DNA of 64,000 nt. Origin: Polytrichum commune (taxonomy: Eukaryota; Streptophyta; Polytrichopsida; Polytrichales; Polytrichaceae). The stretch is taken from positions 51,572,429 through 51,636,428 of the forward strand of contig OX485804.1 in assembly GCA_950295325.1 (NCBI GenBank). Reading direction: 5' to 3'. The translations under genes were made by a program, and so were the position numbers. Shown piece after piece: positions 10,981 through 50,115 of the stretch. Below the pieces are notes generated by a model, which searched no databases, had not been told where the DNA came from, and saw nothing but the letters and a program-made list of their open reading frames with translations. Positions within the stretch are counted from its first letter, which is position 1. Each line of letters starts with the position of its first letter.

Positions 10981-11282
10981 TGTGGTGTTCTAGTTTTGTA
11001 GTAGAAAGTCAAGAGTCTGCAGTGATTGATTCAGATACCTATAAAAATCAAACACATCGTGCTTTCACCTCCTCATCATGCAGTCGTCGACGATTGGCTC
11101 TCGTTCCAAAACGGTAATTGCGTCAAACGCCTATGCGCCCTTGCCATTCCAAAGTTCCAAAGCTCCAAAATGTACAAAAGATGCGGTGTTTGATTTTGTT
11201 GTAAAAGTCAAGTTAGCTGCAGTGGTTGATTTAGATACCCATAAAAATTGAACTCATCATGCTTTCACCTCATCATCATCTT
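10981..11282. repeat. Duplicated 3' end of the ubiquitin-RING gene
   Basis: 10981-11081 and 11182-11282 are direct repeats (TGTGGTGTTCTAGTTTTGTA... against TGCGGTGTTTGATTTTGTTG..., then GTCAAG, CTGCAGTG, GATTTAGATACC, CATAAAAAT, GCTTTCACCTC). The right copy holds the last codons and stop of the minus-strand gene at 11257. The left copy is a stranded duplicate of its 3' untranslated region and terminal codons. Confidence 0.65.
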
Positions 11283-13515
11283 GAATATTTTCCCTGCAAA
11301 TGGGACAGGAAGTGCCACCGCTTGCTTTCCAGACCCCGACACAATCGGCATGGAAGGTATGCCCACAGGCGGTGGTGTGATTCGCACTCGCAGGAGTCTT
11401 GTTGAAATCCTGGAAGCAAATCGAGCACGAATCTTCGGCCACAACGCGTTCCTGCTTCCGGACGGAGTTTTCTTTTTTGGGGACTGCAGCGGGATTGGGC
11501 CGCTCCTTGGCGGTGATGATGAGATACTCCCAGTCCACCATGTTCCCTCCCGGTACGAAATACTCGTACCGCTTCTCCGCTTTGTACCACTGGCTCATCA
11601 CCCTCTTGTTGGTGATTTCATCTTTCTCGGCGGCGGGGGGGCTACTATCTGTAAGCTTAGCACCTGCAGGGGGTCCATGCCTTCAGAACCTGCTTTGGAG
11701 CTGCTAAAATGTTTTTCAATCATAATTTCGCCAATAGAGAGCTTCAATTAATGAAAGGAAATCAGAAATACCTCTCTACGGACAATGGGAGACGCTCTAA
11801 ACGAAATGCTTACCCCTTGCATGCATGGAAGTTGAATCGTGACGTGTTGCTATAGTATTATAAGCATTCTAGATATTCTAAGATTTTTCTTCTTGGAAGT
11901 GAAAATAAATATGTACCTAGGGGGTGAGTCTAGACGGCGATCTATCCTACCTTTGGAAACATAGTTTTTATTTATTTTAAAAATCGTTTCTAGAAATGTC
12001 AGCATTTGAAAGTGTGAACCTTTTCTAATTTAGAAAAAAAATTGGTATCAACATCACCAATGGAAAGTGTTGAAGCCTTTTCTAATTCAGACAGAAGTGG
12101 GACTTATAGACTCCTCTCCTTGCCAGCCTCCTTCTTTCCAAGCACCATGTGCTTCAATCCTCTTTGTGAGATAACAAACCATCGGAAATTCATTAGGAGC
12201 ATTATCAAAAGTATCATTAGAAACGATTAGACTCACCCTGTTAGTCCTCCTTGTAGAAGTTCGTAAAGATCGAGAAGAAGTTAGTGTGGCCTGCTCGGCA
12301 TCTAATCGCTTCTAAGAACATCAACAAATGAAATTCTTAAAGCCATATCTAATTCAGACAGAAGTGGGACCTATGAATTCCTCACCATGCCTAGACCTAC
12401 TTCTGGCCAAGCATCAAGCTGCTTCAATTCTTTTTGTGAGATAACAAATCGTCAAAATTTCATGAGAAGCATTAAACCTAGAAACATCATTCGAAGCGAT
12501 TGCACTCACCCTGCTGCTGATCCACCTTCTGGCCGCCCTTGAAGCAGTTTGTGAAGATCGACAACAAGTTCACGTTCCCTGCTCCTCCTCGCCTTCCTCC
12601 AGAGATTTGTTTTCGTGACTTTGGATCTGCCTTGCGCCCCTCGAACATCCACAGACAATCAGAGAACGAGCAAGTAATGGCCTTCACCGGTTTCTTGCAC
12701 GCAGGACAGTGCACAGGTTGAACAACCACATTAAATGCCGTAAATCCCTTCTGGCAGATCACCATGTGCAAGTACGCTTTGCACGAGGGGTTCGTGCACA
12801 ACCCTTCGATGTTCAACCCGCGGACGACGTACCGCCACATCGGAACGGCCTTTCCGTACGGTTGCACCCTCATCATCATCCGGTTGGATATATCTGCGAA
12901 TGAAGTTTTGCAAGGCAAAGAAGCAGGCACGGCTCCCCCTCCTCTAAGACGCAACAAAAGCTGCACGGTGCTATCCTTCTGCACACCATAGTCACCGAGA
13001 GTCTTTGGAGAATTGCTCAATTGCTTGCCTTCGAAGATAAATCGCTGGTGCTTAGCAGGGATGCCTTCCCGTGACTGAACCTCTTCTTGGAGCTCCTGCA
13101 CAGTGGTAGAGCTAAGAGGTAGGCCGTCCACAACAATGGAGTTTCCGCGGATGGATTTCACAAAGAAGACATTGCGACCTGAGGCTGTGTGGACTGCGAA
13201 CCGGGGGCTGCTGATGAGGCCGATGTTGCTGTTGATGTTTTCGTCTTGGTGGAGTTTGGGCATGAGGTAGGAGAGCACCGTATCTTTGCTCAGACGCACT
13301 CCGCGGTAGGAGATGTAAACCACCCTGAGGCCAGGTAGGTTGGAGGCGACGTTCTGTTCGAGGTCTTCGACGGTGGAGTTTGTGGTACCGGAGTAAGGCA
13401 CGGTGAGGAATCCGGCCAGGGATTTCTCGTCGATGCTGATGTGTGACAATTGTATCATGGTGGCGGTTGCGGCACCGCCGCCGGAGCTATGATGATCTGT
13501 TGCCTTTAACCCCAT
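11257..13515 (-). CDS. Ubiquitin-domain, zinc-module, RING-H2 fusion protein; probable E3 ubiquitin ligase
   Basis: Exon 1 is 13515-12510 and exon 2 is 11663-11257, giving 470 residues. The donor GTGAGT and the acceptor CTGCAG join a split Gly codon (QQQ-G-AKLTD). Residues about 116-193 are ubiquitin-like ([18 protein letters not shown], then [15 protein letters not shown]) and are followed by another Gly and a long C-terminal extension. A first, weaker ubiquitin-like region may occupy 20-105. Next comes a Cys module: C240-x4-C245, C270-x2-C273, C282-x4-C287. Residues 359-386 ([24 protein letters not shown]) precede a RING-H2 finger with C415, C418, C435, H437, H440, C443, C455 and C458. RING-H2 proteins recruit E2 enzymes; a ubiquitin head could autoinhibit, recruit or be cleaved after GG. 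I recall similar Ub-Cys-RING proteins in fungi and protists. The ATG at 13515 is the first in frame; a CAG directly upstream could instead mark an intron end in the leader. The exon-1 end is duplicated inside the intron. Confidence 0.85.
12040..12590. repeat. Intron duplication copying the end of exon 1 of the Ub-RING gene
   Basis: About 12040-12320 and 12315-12590 are direct repeats offset by about 273 bp (TCTAATTCAGACAGAAGTGG, TTTGTGAGATAACAAA, ACTCACCCTG). The right copy includes the real exon-1 end and its donor at 12510. The left copy, read on the minus strand, gives an eroded version ([13 protein letters not shown] then a stop) followed by its own GTGAGT at about 12231-12236. It is a decayed duplicate exon end inside the intron. 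Confidence 0.75.
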
Positions 13516-13589: not shown

Positions 13590-14410
13590 AGTGTGCTCTC
13601 AAGATAACAAAGAACATCATCGGTTATTTGATAAGATTGGTTTAATGCGTCAGCCCAATAATGTCATCACACAACTAAGTTGCTGCATTTGTCTATACCT
13701 AGTGCCGGATTCATTGGTGAGACTAGGAACTTTGCAGATTGATGTACTCTCAGTACAACGAAGAACATGACCATTCATCTCCTAAGATTGCAAAATGCGT
13801 CAGCCGTAGAACGTCATCACAGGACTAAGTTGCTGCATCTGTCGGCAGCAAGCACTTCTCACGCCAGACTCATCCTTGAGACTGGCAAATTTGCGAGTTA
13901 TCTGCTTTGAAGATAACTAAGAAACATCATCATTCATCTACCAAATTTGCAAACCCGTCAACCCAAGAAGAACGACACCACAGGACTAAGTTGCTGCATC
14001 TGTCGGTAGCAGGCAGCTTTTCCTGCCAGATCCATTTCTGACAGTGGGAAATTTGCATGTACTTTCGAGACAACTAAGAAGATCATCAGTCACCCACTAA
14101 GATTGGAAATGCGTCAACCCTGCATCACAGAACTAAGTTGCCGCAACATCTGTCGGTAGCAAGCACTTTTCCATGTTGACCAAGTCAGATTTATTGCTGA
14201 GACTGGAGAAATTTGCAAGTAATGTGCTCTCAAGGCAACCAAATGTATTATCAATCACAGACTACTGAGATTGGAAACGCGTCAGCCCTGCAAAAACATC
14301 ACTATCACAGAAGTAGGTTCCTACATCTATCGGTAGCAGGTACTCTTCCTCCTAGGCTCATTATTGAGACTGGGAGGTTTGCAAGTCATGTGCTCTTAAG
14401 ATAATAAAGA
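13590..14410. repeat. Tandem repeats upstream of the Ub-RING gene, five units of about 150-180 bp
   Basis: A unit with GCTCTCAAGATAACTAAGAA, CATCATCAGTCAC, AAATGCGTCAGCCC, ACTAAGTTGCTGCATCTGTC and GGTAGCAAGCACTTTTCC recurs. The GCTGCATCTGTC landmark falls near 13681, 13831, 13992, 14140 and 14320. Because the gene's ATG lies directly behind a CAG, the array may sit in a 5' untranslated intron or in the promoter. Confidence 0.75.
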
Positions 14411-15440
14411 ACATTCACAACCCTATCAAGAATAACCCAGAAACGTCAGAAAATTATATATTTCAAGAACACCTGACTTCTTGCATGCTCAGTTCCTGCC
14501 GGATATTTGTGGTGGATTGCATGTGAATTGCATGCGCGCTTACACAGATTCGCAGGACCTCAAGTTAATAGAACACATCATTTCTTGATGACTTCGACCA
14601 ACCATATTCAAGATCATCGCAAGTCACCGCCACCGTAAACATCATTTCACATGACCTTACTTAACCCAAGGTATGCAGCCTACATACGAATCCTGAAGCA
14701 ATACTGCAACGGGAATGCAACCTCAAAGCGGACGGTGACATGCATTCGACATCTCCAACAAACTCCAAGGCGGACATCCCAACCCATGCCAATACATGAA
14801 CTGAGGAGGAGGATGATTGAGCAATTGACATTTAATTCACCTTCCGGCTTTCTGATCGGTGCCTTCGGTTATGATACTTATTGCTCCTTAAAACGAAGTG
14901 CCTACTTCATAATTCGACAAGAGCGACACTTTTACATGGCCATCTCTCCCACTATCATGTCTGCCTGCAAGAGCAAGAGATCTGCCTTTCTGCAACAAAC
15001 AGACCCAAGACTAAACTTCAATTTATCCCAAACTGGCACTTGCATTACCCGGAAGAGGACGAGAAGACGCACTTAAAGAATTAGTCGGGTGGGGTCAAGA
15101 TTTAGTCGGGGTGCCTGACCCGTCCCGACTACCCACAACCAGGTGGCGAAGGATGTTATGCTGACTGCAAAAGATTCACAAATTGTTCGGAATTTTCAGA
15201 AATTTGCAGGAATCTGCAGGAATCGTAAGACTCAGGTCACTTGCGGCACCCATTTCGGAGGCACTTCGGGAGCCCAATTTCGTGCCTTTTCGTGCAATTA
15301 TAAGTGACTATGTGATCAGTGTTAGAAGAACTGTAACAGACTGCAGAATCTGGGGCGTGAAAATGGCCCCAACTTGGGGTTGACATGCTTGCCATCGCTT
15401 GACATGCATCATTTCTAGTCGGTGATGACCAGGCTTCCCG
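14411..15440. other. Upstream flank of the Ub-RING gene, no gene seen
   Basis: Several overlapping ORFs on both strands lack domains or exon context. If the leader of the Ub-RING gene is spliced, its first exon and promoter would be expected here on the minus strand, but I cannot locate them. Confidence 0.35.
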
Positions 15441-27195: not shown

Positions 27196-29340
27196 ATGCC
27201 GATGATGATGGGAACAGTTCACTGCGTGTCAATTTCCAATATTGTTCGCCTTCCTTGTCATGTCAAACCTCATGTCAAATTCTCACCACATGCATACGCA
27301 AGACCAATATTCCCCACACAAGCTCTATGTGGACCATTTGTGCCATCAAAGCTCGGAGCTTCTGGAGCTCAAGGACTTCCTGGTGTTTGTAGGTTGCAGG
27401 AGGCAAGGAAGGAAACTCGAAGATTCACCGGCGGTGATGGGAAGACGAGGAATACGGTTACAGCAATGGCACAGCTACCAGGCTTGTTTCCGAACCCGGA
27501 AGGATGGTTAGTTGTTGCGTTGGAGCTGGTGATGTTGTATAAGGGGCTGACTACTGGGTACAATGAAGCCATGGGGAGTAAGAATTTGGGATACTCCAAG
27601 TTTGCCAACACCGGTGCGGAGGAGGTGGACAAGAAGACAAGGATCCCGGGCAAGTGGGGGATGTTGCTATTGTATGCTCCTGCTGCTCTTCTTGGCTCCA
27701 TTTTCCTGGCACACAGGCTTGGCTTGATTTCACTTACCCCAGTGGCTGAGCTTTTTGGAGCTTCCGGTGTTGCAGCAACATTGCAGAGCGCGGTGGAGTT
27801 TCCAGACCTCCGTGTCTTGCTTGTCACTTCGGCTTTGACCATTCATTTCTGGAAACGAGTTCTTGAGGTACGAAATCTACATAATCTCTTGCAACTCATG
27901 GATTGAGATACTCCTCCGGCTCAGTAATGTGAAGTTTATCTGTGAATAAGGTTCCCATTAGGTTTAGGTGATGTGTATGCACAGGAAATGCGTTGCACCG
28001 GCAATGTGTCCGAGTTGCTTTATTTGTTTATCTTGCATCTAATCCTAATGTAGAGTTCATTGCATTCATCCTGCTTCAAGGCTTTCCTCGCCTCATTGTG
28101 CACTTTCTTGAGGTATTAATATCTCGGAGGGACTGGACTGTATGTATGAATTGGGATGTTCCACGGGCACTGTGTGGATTAGGTTTTGGTGATGCGTGTG
28201 CAGAGGAAAATGCAATGCACCGCAATTTGTCCGAGTTGCTTTCTTATCTTGCATGTGAATCCAGCGCAGCATTCATTGCATTTGTTTTCCACGCTGATAC
28301 AAGGCTCGCCTCGCCTCGCCTCGCTGTGCGCTTTCTTGGAGCAGTGTGGCAAACAAATGCAATGAATGCTGCGTTTACATTTGCGTTGCAGGATAAGAAG
28401 GTCATAGCAACTAGGACACATTTCCAAAGCATACATTTCTCTGAGTGTTTTCTTTCATCTTTGCATTGAAGCAAGCGTGCATTGCCCCATATCTTGAGTG
28501 TTTGTTTCTCTCTTCTTTGCACATAACCTGGACTTCTCTTTGGAGTCAACCTTGCATAATCCACCATATCTCGACCTCACTGTGCGCTATTTAGAGCAGG
28601 TGGCAGAAGCGGACTGCAATTCCAAGGCTTTTCTCTCTACTGTTTTCTTCTCATCTTTGCCCCATCTTTGCATTCAAGCTTGCAATTCATTCGGCATCTC
28701 CTAACCCTCGCTCTGCACTTTCCCAGAGCGGGTGACAAAGAGGACTGCAATTCCAAGCCATTTCTTCTCTCTAGTGTTTTCTTCTTCTCATCTTTGCATG
28801 CAAGCTTGTATTTCAGTCGCCATCTCCTCTCCTAACCCTCGAGCTGTGGACATGTGCCTGTTGCAGTGTCTCTTTGTGCACAAATTTTCAGGGAGCACGG
28901 TGCTCAAAGACGCTATTTCCATCTCAGCGGGATACTTCTTCTATGTAGTCACATACATTTACATTCAACTGCTGTCCTCCAGTCTTCCCGCACCATCGCC
29001 AGACCTCATGTACTTGGGACTGGCACTCTTCACCATCGGCCTCACGGGGAATGCATACCACCACTGGCTCCTGGCCAATCTCAGAAAGCCTGGTGACACC
29101 AAGAAGTACGTGATTCCCACCGGTGGATTGTTCGATGAGCTAGTTTGCCCTCACTACGCCTTCGAGATCCTGGACTTCATTGGGATTGCACTCATGTGCC
29201 AGACCATCCTGGGATGGTGCAACACATCGTTCGTTGTGTTCTACCTCCTGGGACGTACTCTACAGACCAAAAAATGGTACCTCAAGAAGGTGGATGGCTT
29301 CCCTGAAACAAGGAAGCTCCTCATTCCCAGGATCTTCTAA
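27196..29340 (+). CDS. Steroid 5-alpha-reductase-family membrane oxidoreductase, two exons
   Basis: Exon 1 is 27196-27867 and exon 2 is 28867-29340. GT at 27868 and AG at 28865-28866 join FWKRVLE to CLFVHKFSG in phase 0. From the ATG at 27196 the product is 381 residues; from the ATG at 27466 it is 291, the usual family length. The C-terminal half is the 3-oxo-5-alpha-steroid 4-dehydrogenase domain: GNAYHHWLLANLRKPGD, KKYVIPTGGLFDELVCPHYA, FEILDFIGIAL, and the ending KKWYLKKVDGFPETRKLLIP. Several hydrophobic helices indicate an integral membrane, NADPH-dependent reductase. It resembles the plant group typified, from memory, by Arabidopsis At5g16010, whose substrate is unclear, more than DET2 or polyprenol reductase. 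The 90 residues before Met-27466 are basic, Ser/Pro-rich and acid-poor; they may be a plastid transit peptide or untranslated leader. The intron and the 3' flank contain duplicated segments. Confidence 0.85.
27960..28860. repeat. Duplicated segments in the reductase intron
   Basis: AGGTTTAGGTGATGTGTATGCA...GGAAATGCGTTGCACCG and GTCCGAGTTGCTTT recur at about 27960-28090 and 28180-28330. A second module (GGACTGCAATTCCAAG, TTTTCTTCT, CATCTTTGCATGCAAGCTTG, CATCTCC, CTAACCCTCG) recurs at about 28610-28720 and 28738-28850. The second module abuts the acceptor of exon 2. Confidence 0.65.
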
Positions 29341-46030: not shown

Positions 46031-47508
46031 AGAAAAGAAAAGAAAAGAAATACCCATATTATATATTGGCGTGAATGTGAGCCCGTTTACCAAATGTTGA
46101 TCACAATAGTTCATGATACAACATGGGGTGTTATGCCTCCTTCAGGAGGTGGGCTCTGGGAGCGCATTAGAAATCCTAGGGCCTTATGGGGTGGGATAGG
46201 GGTTTGTTTATTTTCTAGATTCCTTTTGTTTAGGACTAGGTAAGTGAGATATTTGATGGCGTTCTGGTATATATTTTTCATGAGGGTCTTGATGTTGGGG
46301 TTCTGGAATTTTGAGGTTGGTCAATTTATTTATGGAGTGTTTGTTTATGGCTCCTCTTACTCCGGTTGTGATGGTGATGAGGGGGTTGGTGTTCCATCCA
46401 TTGTTTTATATGGTGTTGATTAGTGGGTCGTATTTGGTGTGCTTATGTGAGAGGGCTTGTTCAAGGAATCTATCATGGCATTATGTGAATTCAATAAATT
46501 GGACTATGTGAGTGTGGGAGGGTGTCATGGGTGTTTGTGTTTGGTTTGGGACTCCAAGTATGCATAGGATATTTGGTCTTAGTTTGGCTTGACATTGGCA
46601 GGTTGTTTGTGGGCATATGCATTTAAGGAGCCATTCTGGGATTGTTTGTTCAGGTTTTGTGTTGTTGGTTTTGCATGCGTTGGTTAGTGTGTAGAACCAT
46701 GTGTTTTTGTTGGCTTGTAAAGTTTGGGCAATAAGGTGTACTGCTTTATTGTGTCTTGCAATTCTTAGGCCTTTTAGGTATGAATGTTCACATGTTGATA
46801 AAAGGTGGGGCCATGTGTCTCTATCATTGTTGTAACATGGTGTGCAATTGGGGTTTGGGTGTGCGAGGGGCCAAAATACATTTTTCCTGTGATTACCTAT
46901 GTATTGTGCATATATGAGTTTTAATAATTATGTGAGTTGGGCATTTGTCACGCTTTCGTCTTTCCATAAATAATTGGAGAGTTTTGATTTATTTGGTTGT
47001 TTGATAGCCATTTGTCTATGTATGGGAATTTATTTATGGTTGTAGCAACTTCACAGGTGCTATGTTCTTTTATTATAAATGTGTGGAGATTACATATGGC
47101 TCCATCATGTGTGGTTGTTGGGCAACTTGCTAGCCAATAGGGGGTAGCGTGGGCTATGTGTATATGGGGTGTAGTGGATATTTTTTCTTTAAGTGTACCC
47201 TCATTGGCTAGTGTGTCGGCTATTTCATTTTCATTAATGCTTGTGTGCCTGCATACTTTGTGTATGTGTATTGTGTATGGGGTCCAATATATCTGATGTA
47301 TAATTGTTGCTACGAGTAATTTATTTGGGTGTTGTTGTTGTGATGTTGGATGTTGTACGTGGTTGTTGATTAGAAATATGCTATCAAGGCTGTCGATGAA
47401 TATGTATGTGTCTATTTGGGTGTTTTGTATGGTTTTGATGGCAATAAGTATAGCGTTAAGTTTTGCTCTTAAGATGTTTTGGTATCCTGGTAATCTATCT
47501 TGGTAATC
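46031..47508 (-). mobile_element. 5'-truncated LINE copy with 11-bp target duplication
   Basis: CTTCACCTTCA flanks the insert at 46020-46030 and 47509-47519. Read on the minus strand, the copy starts inside RNase H and runs through a zinc knuckle (NPNC..C, HLLSTCEH, LKGLRIARHN) and the C-terminal domain to a TTTTC-repeat tail next to the left duplicate. Truncation at the 5' end and a variable-length target duplication are typical of target-primed reverse transcription. Domain order matches the LINE at 16.6-23.7 kb. Confidence 0.8.
46948..47508 (-). pseudogene. LINE RNase H domain fragment
   Basis: An open frame of about 187 codons. RLPGYQNILRAKLNAILIAI corresponds to the RAELYA helix of RNase H, but the catalytic Glu is Lys. 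IFIDSLDSIF keeps the second Asp, and TSINENEIADTLANEGT keeps the last Asp with the His-containing HKVCRHTS loop before it. It ends in degenerate sequence. The insertion deleted everything upstream, including the first Asp. Confidence 0.75.
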
Positions 47509-47519
47509 CTTCACCTTCA

Positions 47520-48963
47520 TTAAGAGCTCACCTCTATTTTACAAGAATGTGGTACCCCTCCCCACCCCCTCCCCCACTCCAAAGTTCTACACTAAACAAA
47601 CTTATTAGTGTGGGCCAATGTAATTTTCTAGAGCTTGCAATAAACCTATGCCAATTCTATCATTTGAATTAATGTGAATCATAATGTTTCCTTGTTTACG
47701 AAGTTGATGTCATGGTTTAAAGTTTTATGTTATGCTACTTTTGATGTAAAGGTGACAAATATTTTATGTAAGTTGTTGGTCGGAAGTCTCAAGGAGACTA
47801 AGGGAATACCATGTCTCTTGAACACGCATTACTTCCACCCCAACTAGACAATTTGATTAGCCCATGTTGATTATGTCCACGCTAATTTATCACCCACACC
47901 AATAGGATTATTAATTAGTGTACTTACACAATGAACACATGGGTGCATATGTACTAAGGCCCACATACGCTAAGGTAGACATGCCTAATTTGATTACTTA
48001 TCTTAATTGGACATTTGTTTATGAGTCATATATGGTTAGGTGTGACTCAAAGAACGGATATCAAAAAGACATGTGTTTAAAAATGATTTGACTATGTGCT
48101 CAAAACATGATAACATTCTAGGCTTAATAGCCAACATTATTGTTTTTTTGGGGGGGGGGGCTATTGCACAAGAATATTCACATTGAATATGAATAATATA
48201 ATCTTATGAGTTTAAAATAGTGAGGAAAGTGGCTATGGCCTTGATGTGAATTTCCTAACCATCTCGTACTAGGTAATCATGTGTTTCATATCATATGAGA
48301 AGTGGACTAGTTAGAAAAAAAAAAGCCATTTAAGACCCATATATGTAGCTGAATTCCTTCAAAAGCAAGGCAAAGTTCTATTTTAAAATTTTGGAACATG
48401 TAATAAGCCTAGATGTGCCTAGTTTTTTTATATGGTCTTCAAAGGACACTTATATAAGAGTGGTGTTTGGTTGGGCACGAATTTAAAAACAAATACAAAA
48501 AAGACATGTCTTAAAAAGAGATTGGACTGCATGCTCCAAAAATTGTCAATTATTTAGGGGGCTGCCACACGAAAGGCAACAAGATTGCCAGTGCAGGCTA
48601 AGGCAGGGCGTAGGCTATTATGAGCCAGCTCAGCGAATTCCAAGGTAAGTCACCACACGACCGCCAGTGGGTCACCGGGACCAACAACTACCGGGAAGTT
48701 GTCCTCGTAGCAGATGGCCAACAAATTTCGGCAGACCAGCAAGGATACCTTTGCAAACCCTCACTTCTACAACTCATTTCTCTCTGCTGCGGTTTGAATG
48801 CTTGCAATTTGTCTGCGAAACTACACACCCTATCAAGATGGACATCGAGGTCTAGAGGCGCATGATTCTACTTGTCTTTCAGTTGTCACTGTTTTGCACG
48901 ATGGATAGTTTGTCAAGAGATGAAGGTGTGATCTCTATATGACATTGGCAACAACTATGTTGC
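47520..48963. other. Intergenic, left flank of the PIF/Harbinger element
   Basis: Repeat remnants only. TTTAGGGGGCTGCCACACG at about 48555 could be an element end after TTA, but I could not find the matching right end. ATGAGCCAGCTCAGCGAATT at 48620 followed by CAAG|GTAAGT might be an untranslated or N-terminal exon of the transposase transcript. Confidence 0.35.
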
Positions 48964-50115
48964 ATGGCGGTTGCGGTGCAGGAATTCAGGCGAGCGCGTG
49001 CGAGGCGGCCTCGACGTCTATGGGCCCATGAGAGAGGGTTGCGACAACCCGGATCCGTCGATCGGAACCTACTTGGCTCGTTCAATGCAAGGGAATTCAA
49101 AGGACGCATGCGTATGGACGTCTCGACATTTGAATATTTGTGTTTCATTCTCGCGCCTTCCTTGTAGAAACAAGATACAAATATGCGGTCAGCCATTCCA
49201 GTCTAAGTCAAGGTGGCGGTATCAATCTCAAGATTGGCCACATGTAATTCCATGCGAACTATTGCAGATTTGTATAGGATTGGCCTCTCAATGAGTCAAC
49301 TAGCAATCTCTCAATTCACTAGTGCCATGAAAACAGTCATTTTGAAGAAATTCATTAGATGGCCCTCCACATCCATCATGGAGAAATTTGCTCGTGAGTT
49401 TCAAAACCTGCATCAAATACCATACGTGGTTGGGGCGGTCGATGGATCGCACATATCCATCGTTGCACCTCGTTTGCATGCTGCTGATTATTACAACTAA
49501 AAATGATTTCATTCAATCATGTTGCAATGTGTGGTATCGAGTAAATATTTGTTTTGGGTTTTTGACATAGGTTGGGCGGGATCAATACACGACGCCAACC
49601 TGTGGGGAAGGACCGCGATCGGACAATTATGCGAGGCAGGAAAGCTCGCGTCGTATGTTTTGGTTGGGGATGTTGCATACCTATGCCACCCGTGGATGTT
49701 AGCTCCGTTTAGGGAACACAAAGACAGATTAACCCGAGAGGAATACGACTGGAACTTCGTATAGAGCTCCACACGCATGTGCATTGAGCGAGCATTCGAG
49801 ATGCTAAAAGGCAGATGGCGAATTTTGTTGGAAATGATTGACGTGCATTTGAAGAATGTGCCTGAATTGGTCAATACATGTCTGGTTCTGTACAACATCT
49901 GCATCATTTTCGGGGATAACTTTTGTAAAACCGAATGGATACAGGGAGCATTAAACGAGGTGCACAATGGCCTAATGCTAGGGAAATTTCCGGGGGCATC
50001 AATACAAGAAAGAGTTGCAGTGGCCAACCGTACTCTGCATAGTTTGGCTGGCATTGAAGAGAACTCTAGAGAAACGTTGGAATACATCAAACAAGAGGCT
50101 ACAAGAGAATTTTAA
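48964..50115 (+). pseudogene. PIF/Harbinger (HARBI1-like) transposase, five in-frame stops
   Basis: One continuous frame of 384 codons, broken only by stops at 49165 (TAG), 49204 (TAA), 49498 (TAA), 49504 (TGA) and 49762 (TAG). Landmarks of the DDE_Tnp_4 nuclease are PYVVGAVDGSHISIVAP (first Asp), DIGWAGSIHDANLWG, SYVLVGDVAYLCHPW (second Asp) and MCIERAFEMLKGRWRIL (Glu). ELVNTCLVLYNICI follows near the end. The length matches a full PIF transposase. No frameshift was found, so inactivation is probably fairly recent. It lies tail to tail with the Myb-like ORF at 50271-51831, the usual two-gene make-up of this superfamily. Confidence 0.85.

Follow-up and report, generated by a model that had tools for sequence, protein, structure and literature searches.

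A gene of two exons on the minus strand of Polytrichum commune contig OX485804.1 holds a joined reading frame of 470 codons for a ubiquitin-family domain with an intact LRLRGG tail, an unassigned cysteine-rich (Cys) module and a complete RING-H2 finger. The presence of all three parts in one gene had been put forward in a first-pass annotation of the same DNA, and all three were found, although the first part belongs to the ubiquitin family and is not ubiquitin proper. Of the explanations weighed below, the one ranked most likely, and still held tentatively, is that the protein is the precursor of a RING-H2 ubiquitin ligase that would be cut directly after the two glycines of the tail (LRLRGG/G, G193/G194). 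Positions refer to the window, which is the whole stretch of 64,000 nucleotides that was analysed, and the features of the locus are collected in the table.

Features of the ubiquitin-like/RING-H2 gene, with window positions and residues of the predicted protein
Feature	Positions	Strand	Extent and content	Basis
Exon 1	12510..13515	-	residues 1-335 and one base of codon 336; ATG at 13515	open frame and splice check
Intron	11664..12509	-	846 bases, GT..AG	
Exon 2	11257..11663	-	rest of codon 336 to stop	
Possible degenerate second ubiquitin-like domain (weak)	13201..13464	-	residues 18-105	alignment to the protein's own ubiquitin-like domain
Ubiquitin-like domain (Ubl)	12937..13173	-	about residues 115-193; ends LRLRGG, then G	Pfam ubiquitin
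Cys module	12631..12834	-	residues 228-295; C240-x4-C245, C254, C270-x2-C273, C282-x4-C287	
W/Y block (...DWEYL)	11518..11589	-	residues 361-384	sequence
RING-H2 finger	11293..11427	-	residues 415-459; eight ligands	Pfam zf-RING_2
Decayed tandem copy inside intron	12030..12330	-	copies end of exon 1, donor site and about 200 intron bases	

Gene structure and surroundings

The exon bounds and the splice joining 12510 to 11663 hold as originally drawn. The intron carries GT..AG signals, with AGG/GTGAGT at the donor and CTGCAG/G at the acceptor, and the joined frame is open through both exons, its single stop lying at the end. An alternative acceptor, also in frame, would start exon 2 at 11648 and give a protein of 465 amino acids, five residues shorter. 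The GC content at third codon positions is 0.65 in exon 1 and 0.63 in exon 2, as against a GC content of 0.38 in the intron. The stop-free frame of 354 codons exceeds the longest found in any of 60 Markov windows of the composition of the window (mean 165, maximum 235), but it falls within the range of 60 Markov windows of exon composition (mean 272, maximum 433). The length of the open frame by itself is thus only moderate evidence and not decisive; it is the domain matches that identify the locus as a gene. The exons are presumably spliced as drawn.

The locus contains several local duplications. The copy inside the intron, whose unit is about 270 bases, has a mean column identity of 82% between 12030-12330 and 12300-12600 (repeats D4 and D7, spacing 267 and 270); a stop and gaps occur in it, and it appears decayed. 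At the other end of the gene, a stretch at 11217-11279 spanning the final codons and the beginning of the 3' region recurs 200 bases further downstream, at 11017-11079, with 87% identity. The region upstream, at 13591-14411, is filled over about 800 bases by imperfect direct repeats (D1, D2, D3 and D5) with a spacing of roughly 150-160 bases or multiples of it, and is perhaps the promoter region. A tblastn search of the window with both exons (E up to 1) matched, apart from the gene, a single other stretch at E 0.13; a second copy of the gene is therefore not recognisable in the window.

Ten other open frames of the window were searched against Pfam, and three matches above the cut-off were obtained. 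An open frame at 28705-29340 carries a 3-oxo-5-alpha-steroid 4-dehydrogenase domain (E 1.3e-27), and pieces of mobile elements lie at 46951-47538 (RNase H, E 5.5e-06) and 49765-50112 (DDE_Tnp_4, E 1.3e-07); the DDE transposase frame also has a match to a plant transposon below the cut-off. These matches fit a repeat-rich plant genome. Nothing was found in the window with Rfam.

Domains of the predicted protein

Pfam was searched with the two exon frames separately, and the HMM check that the first-pass annotation had proposed for ubiquitin and RING-H2 domains placed both above the Pfam cut-off. The ubiquitin family (PF00240) matches residues 118-191 with E 1.6e-17 and 63.5 bits against a cut-off of 25.4. 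When aligned with ubiquitin, 36 of 73 residues are identical (49%). Residues retained include K6, K48, K63, R42, I44, Q49, D58, S65, R72, R74 and the terminal GG, while four lysines (K11, K27, K29 and K33) are lost and further changes include L8I, A46E, H68Q and V70L. The identity of 36/73 and the loss of four of the seven lysines rule out that the domain is ubiquitin itself. The expected tail, LRLRGG followed by a further glycine, was borne out at residues 188-194: LRLRGG occupies residues 188-193 and G-A-V-P follows, so that the residue after the GG is not a proline, as would be expected of a processed ubiquitin-type precursor. The domain had been described as an N-terminal ubiquitin head, which does not stand, as it is internal and is preceded by 114 residues. 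Because it is both internal and distinct from ubiquitin, a cut after the GG would free a 193-residue piece and not ubiquitin. In a search of the PDB with exon 1, 428 matches were returned, with ubiquitin and ubiquitin fusions among the best 60 of these.

The 114 residues before the Ubl may be a degenerate second ubiquitin-like domain, giving an ISG15-like arrangement, although this is weak, a lead and no more. When residues 18-105 were aligned with the protein's own Ubl, the score was reached by 7 of 1000 shuffles at gap penalties of 8/1 and by 50 of 1000 at 11/1. Against ubiquitin the corresponding counts were 213 and 536 of 1000, which is not significant. Residues 1-105 had no match in Pfam, and their only match in the PDB was a TonB-dependent receptor at E 0.037.

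Between the Ubl and the RING lie the Cys module and the W/Y block. The module has the C-x4-C, C-x2-C and C-x4-C pairs that had been claimed for it, plus an extra cysteine, C254, which makes seven cysteines within 48 residues; when the protein was shuffled 5000 times, 76 of the shuffles reached that density. No Pfam family matches it above the cut-off, the best being DNA_ligase_ZBD over 9 residues (10.7 bits against 25.8). In the PDB (E up to 10), residues 194-335 gave as their only match an antibody chain at E 0.95, and no ribosomal protein. Two eS31 chains among the best 60 of the 428 exon 1 matches do have residues 117-248 as their best stretch, which runs into the start of the Cys module; since residues 194-335 alone find no ribosomal match, this is read as an extension of the ubiquitin match. 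The module probably binds zinc, and two Cys pairs with a hairpin between them would fit a zinc ribbon. It may serve to select a substrate or a partner. The part of exon 2 ahead of the RING, including the W/Y block, had no match in Pfam. NCBIfam gave four matches, all far below the cut-off. Single-sequence structure models had a mean pLDDT of 32.8 for exon 1 and 40.7 for exon 2, too poor for the fold to be read.

The RING-H2 finger is the second clear domain. Pfam zf-RING_2 (PF13639) matches exon 2 with E 3.2e-11 and 43.8 bits against a cut-off of 27.3, and all eight ligands previously listed for it are present in the protein sequence in the C3H2C3 order (C415, C418, C435, H437, H440, C443, C455 and C458), spaced as C-x2-C-x16-C-x-H-x2-H-x2-C-x11-C-x2-C. 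The PDB search with exon 2 gave 54 RING-finger matches (E up to 0.01), of which the best was the plant protein of AT5G66160 (7bvw, E 7.8e-09). We take I417, W447 and P456 to be residues that contact the E2, and R459, directly after the last cysteine, to stand at the linchpin position, both as in active RINGs. The finger is predicted to be active as a ligase.

Relatives and comparison with known systems

Similar Cys modules, together with a W..A..Y..F block, presumably occur in fungal, ciliate and rotifer proteins that are annotated merely as ubiquitin-like or RING. If this likeness holds, the gene would belong to a family that is widespread though it has no name. Neither the whole protein nor the Cys module had a relative in the viral contigs, bacterial and archaeal genomes, phages and plasmids that were searched; these collections are without eukaryotic genomes, and so the absence of relatives in them says nothing about plants. 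The Cys-module peptide had no match in viral contigs and exon 1 had none in phages. In plasmids, exon 1 had one match, restricted to residues 117-201, at 388162-388416 of NC_014824.1 from Ruminococcus albus (38.6% identical, E 8e-10), a stretch annotated as a ubiquitin family protein. Two patterns were also used whose conserved positions were chosen after the presumed similar proteins of eukaryotes. GLNxxGxCxNxxCxA had 0 viral matches. CPxC...CxFxxCxW, as a DNA pattern, hit 8 viral stretches, and the version with an additional Thr hit 3 bacterial ones, but the translations of these 11 loci are unlike the query by eye and tblastn with both exons (E up to 1) gave a best E of 0.59, so they are taken as chance. 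A peptide pattern from exon 2 hit 9 stretches of viral contigs, none of which is a relative by tblastn.

Fusions of ubiquitin or a Ubl with a RING are, as a general kind, already known from algae and from RBBP6. Sibbald et al. (2019, PMC6332867) describe two ubiquitin-RING fusions of Guillardia theta and a Bigelowiella natans gene in which two ubiquitins are combined with a zinc RING finger, with cited RNA-seq in support of expression. In Chlamydomonas, Arabidopsis, yeast and human, S27a and L40 were the only clear-cut ubiquitin fusions that they found. The algal fusions resemble the present gene in that a RING finger, or a region like one, is joined in frame to ubiquitin, of which there are one or two units. 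Compared by description and not by sequence, they are shorter, at 145, 199 and 273 amino acids against 470, and the present gene differs in its diverged Ubl, 114-residue leader, Cys module and W/Y block. The ribosomal fusions eL40 and eS31/S27a, several of which are among the best 60 of the 428 PDB matches, likewise have ubiquitin, GG and then a partner, but the partner here carries a RING. No plant gene with a diverged Ubl and intact tail, a Cys module and a RING-H2 finger was found among the literature matches listed, and a term search of the main text of a paper on the plant RING repertoire (PMC6118397) returned no instance of ubiquitin-like, ubiquitin domain, UBQ or DWNN.

The closest arrangement in order of parts is that of RBBP6, in which a Ubl (DWNN), a CCHC zinc knuckle and a RING are reported from all eukaryotic genomes examined (PMC1360078), plants having RBBP6 as well. 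DWNN is described there as a proposed modifier, and as being without conserved K48 and K63, whereas the Ubl of the present protein keeps both lysines and LRLRGG. Membership of the RBBP6 family was rejected: with matches up to E 10, most of those above about 0.1 being dropped by the HMMER filters, there is no DWNN among the 5 Pfam families for exon 1 and no CCHC in the Cys module (1 family listed for residues 194-335). Parkin and other E3s with an integral Ubl are similar in having a Ubl and RING-type domains in one chain, but parkin is an RBR and a single RING-H2 is seen here; an RBR E3 such as parkin or HOIL was likewise rejected, as IBR is absent from the 5 families for exon 1 and from the best 25 listed for exon 2. 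The RAWUL domain is a distant Ubl that is located after the RING, whereas here the Pfam ubiquitin family itself matches, ahead of the RING. The PRC1 RING proteins with RAWUL, which have putative plant members, also bring a RING and a ubiquitin-like domain together (PMC2447854). ISG15 has the LRLRGG tail and would share the tandem of diverged Ubls in a precursor, the first Ubl being uncertain in the present protein. Its Ubls are 29% and 31% identical to ubiquitin and its precursor is cut to expose LRLRGG (PMC9722776), but what it sheds is eight C-terminal residues and not an E3.

Cut precursor or attached domain

If the junction is cut, one protein would be made in which the N-terminal 193 residues, with one clear and perhaps one degenerate Ubl, precede the E3 part. 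A deubiquitinase would likely act at the G193/G194 bond, and cleavage there would yield an ISG15-shaped head and an E3 comprising Cys module, W/Y block and RING. A GG is often missing from Ubls that remain part of their protein, and a cut precursor is favoured above all because the tail is fully kept although the domain is half-changed. The retention of LRLRGG, R42, I44, Q49, D58, R72 and R74 despite an identity of 49% counts in the same direction. Proline after the GG would hinder most deubiquitinases, and so the glycine found there counts for cutting as well, while a RING with all its ligands, best matched by a plant RING, counts for a RING E3 precursor. ISG15 provides the precedent for a precursor with tandem diverged Ubls (PMC9722776). 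Against cutting, the kept tail comes from a single sequence and may mean merely that the fusion is recent, and with half of the ubiquitin residues changed, including L8I, A46E, H68Q and V70L, the surface may escape recognition. A ubiquitin-eS31 fusion that stays uncleaved is described from Giardia, though the glycine at position 75 is replaced there (PMC11354881). Taken together, cutting at G193/G194 is a plausible first choice, and we hold it with less than even confidence.

A close second is that the Ubl is never cut and regulates the RING in cis, through autoinhibition, donor-ubiquitin mimicry or docking of an E2 or the proteasome, as may be compared with parkin, which is activated via its own Ubl. 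The internal position and divergence of the domain agree with this, as does the tendency of eukaryotic architectures to pair UBL domains with ubiquitin-signalling domains, RING-superfamily E3s included, a trend named by Burroughs et al. (2007, PMC1949818). In RBBP6 a single chain carries Ubl, zinc knuckle and RING, and the Ubl of this three-domain protein has a di-glycine in human and mouse (PMC1360078), which also weakens the argument from the tail; what an attached Ubl leaves without an obvious role is the complete LRLRGG-G. It is a good deal less probable that the fusion is near-neutral, with a Ubl that takes no part in signalling itself and only helps the downstream E3 to be expressed or folded. 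The same possibility has been raised for protist ubiquitin fusions (PMC11354881), and the local duplications of the locus, found in its intron and at its 3' end, would suit it, but a domain that has diverged from ubiquitin while preserving tail and core suggests long constraint, and the RING ligands are intact. Least probable of all is that the exons are unjoined or the locus a pseudogene, so that the fusion protein is never made. The weak-looking pyrimidine tract of the acceptor and the two in-frame acceptors speak for this; against it, the frame is intact across both exons and the splice, the exons and intron differ in GC as given above, and the exon has none of the stop and gaps of its copy in the intron.

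The cut precursor, should it exist, invites a bolder proposal, which we consider improbable: a plant polyprotein made up of an ISG15-shaped modifier and its own RING ligase, both of which would be released in equal amounts by the cut at LRLRGG/G. The diverged tandem-Ubl modifier, which keeps K48 and K63, would be conjugated by that E3 in a private branch of conjugation, with the putative zinc module as adaptor. Cutting at the junction would make the gene one for a modifier-plus-ligase polyprotein, whereas ISG15 has been reported from vertebrates only (PMC9722776). If it is uncut, the protein would be a compact natural case in which a RING-H2 ligase carries a tethered near-ubiquitin domain, and would offer a clean test of donor-ubiquitin mimicry in cis.
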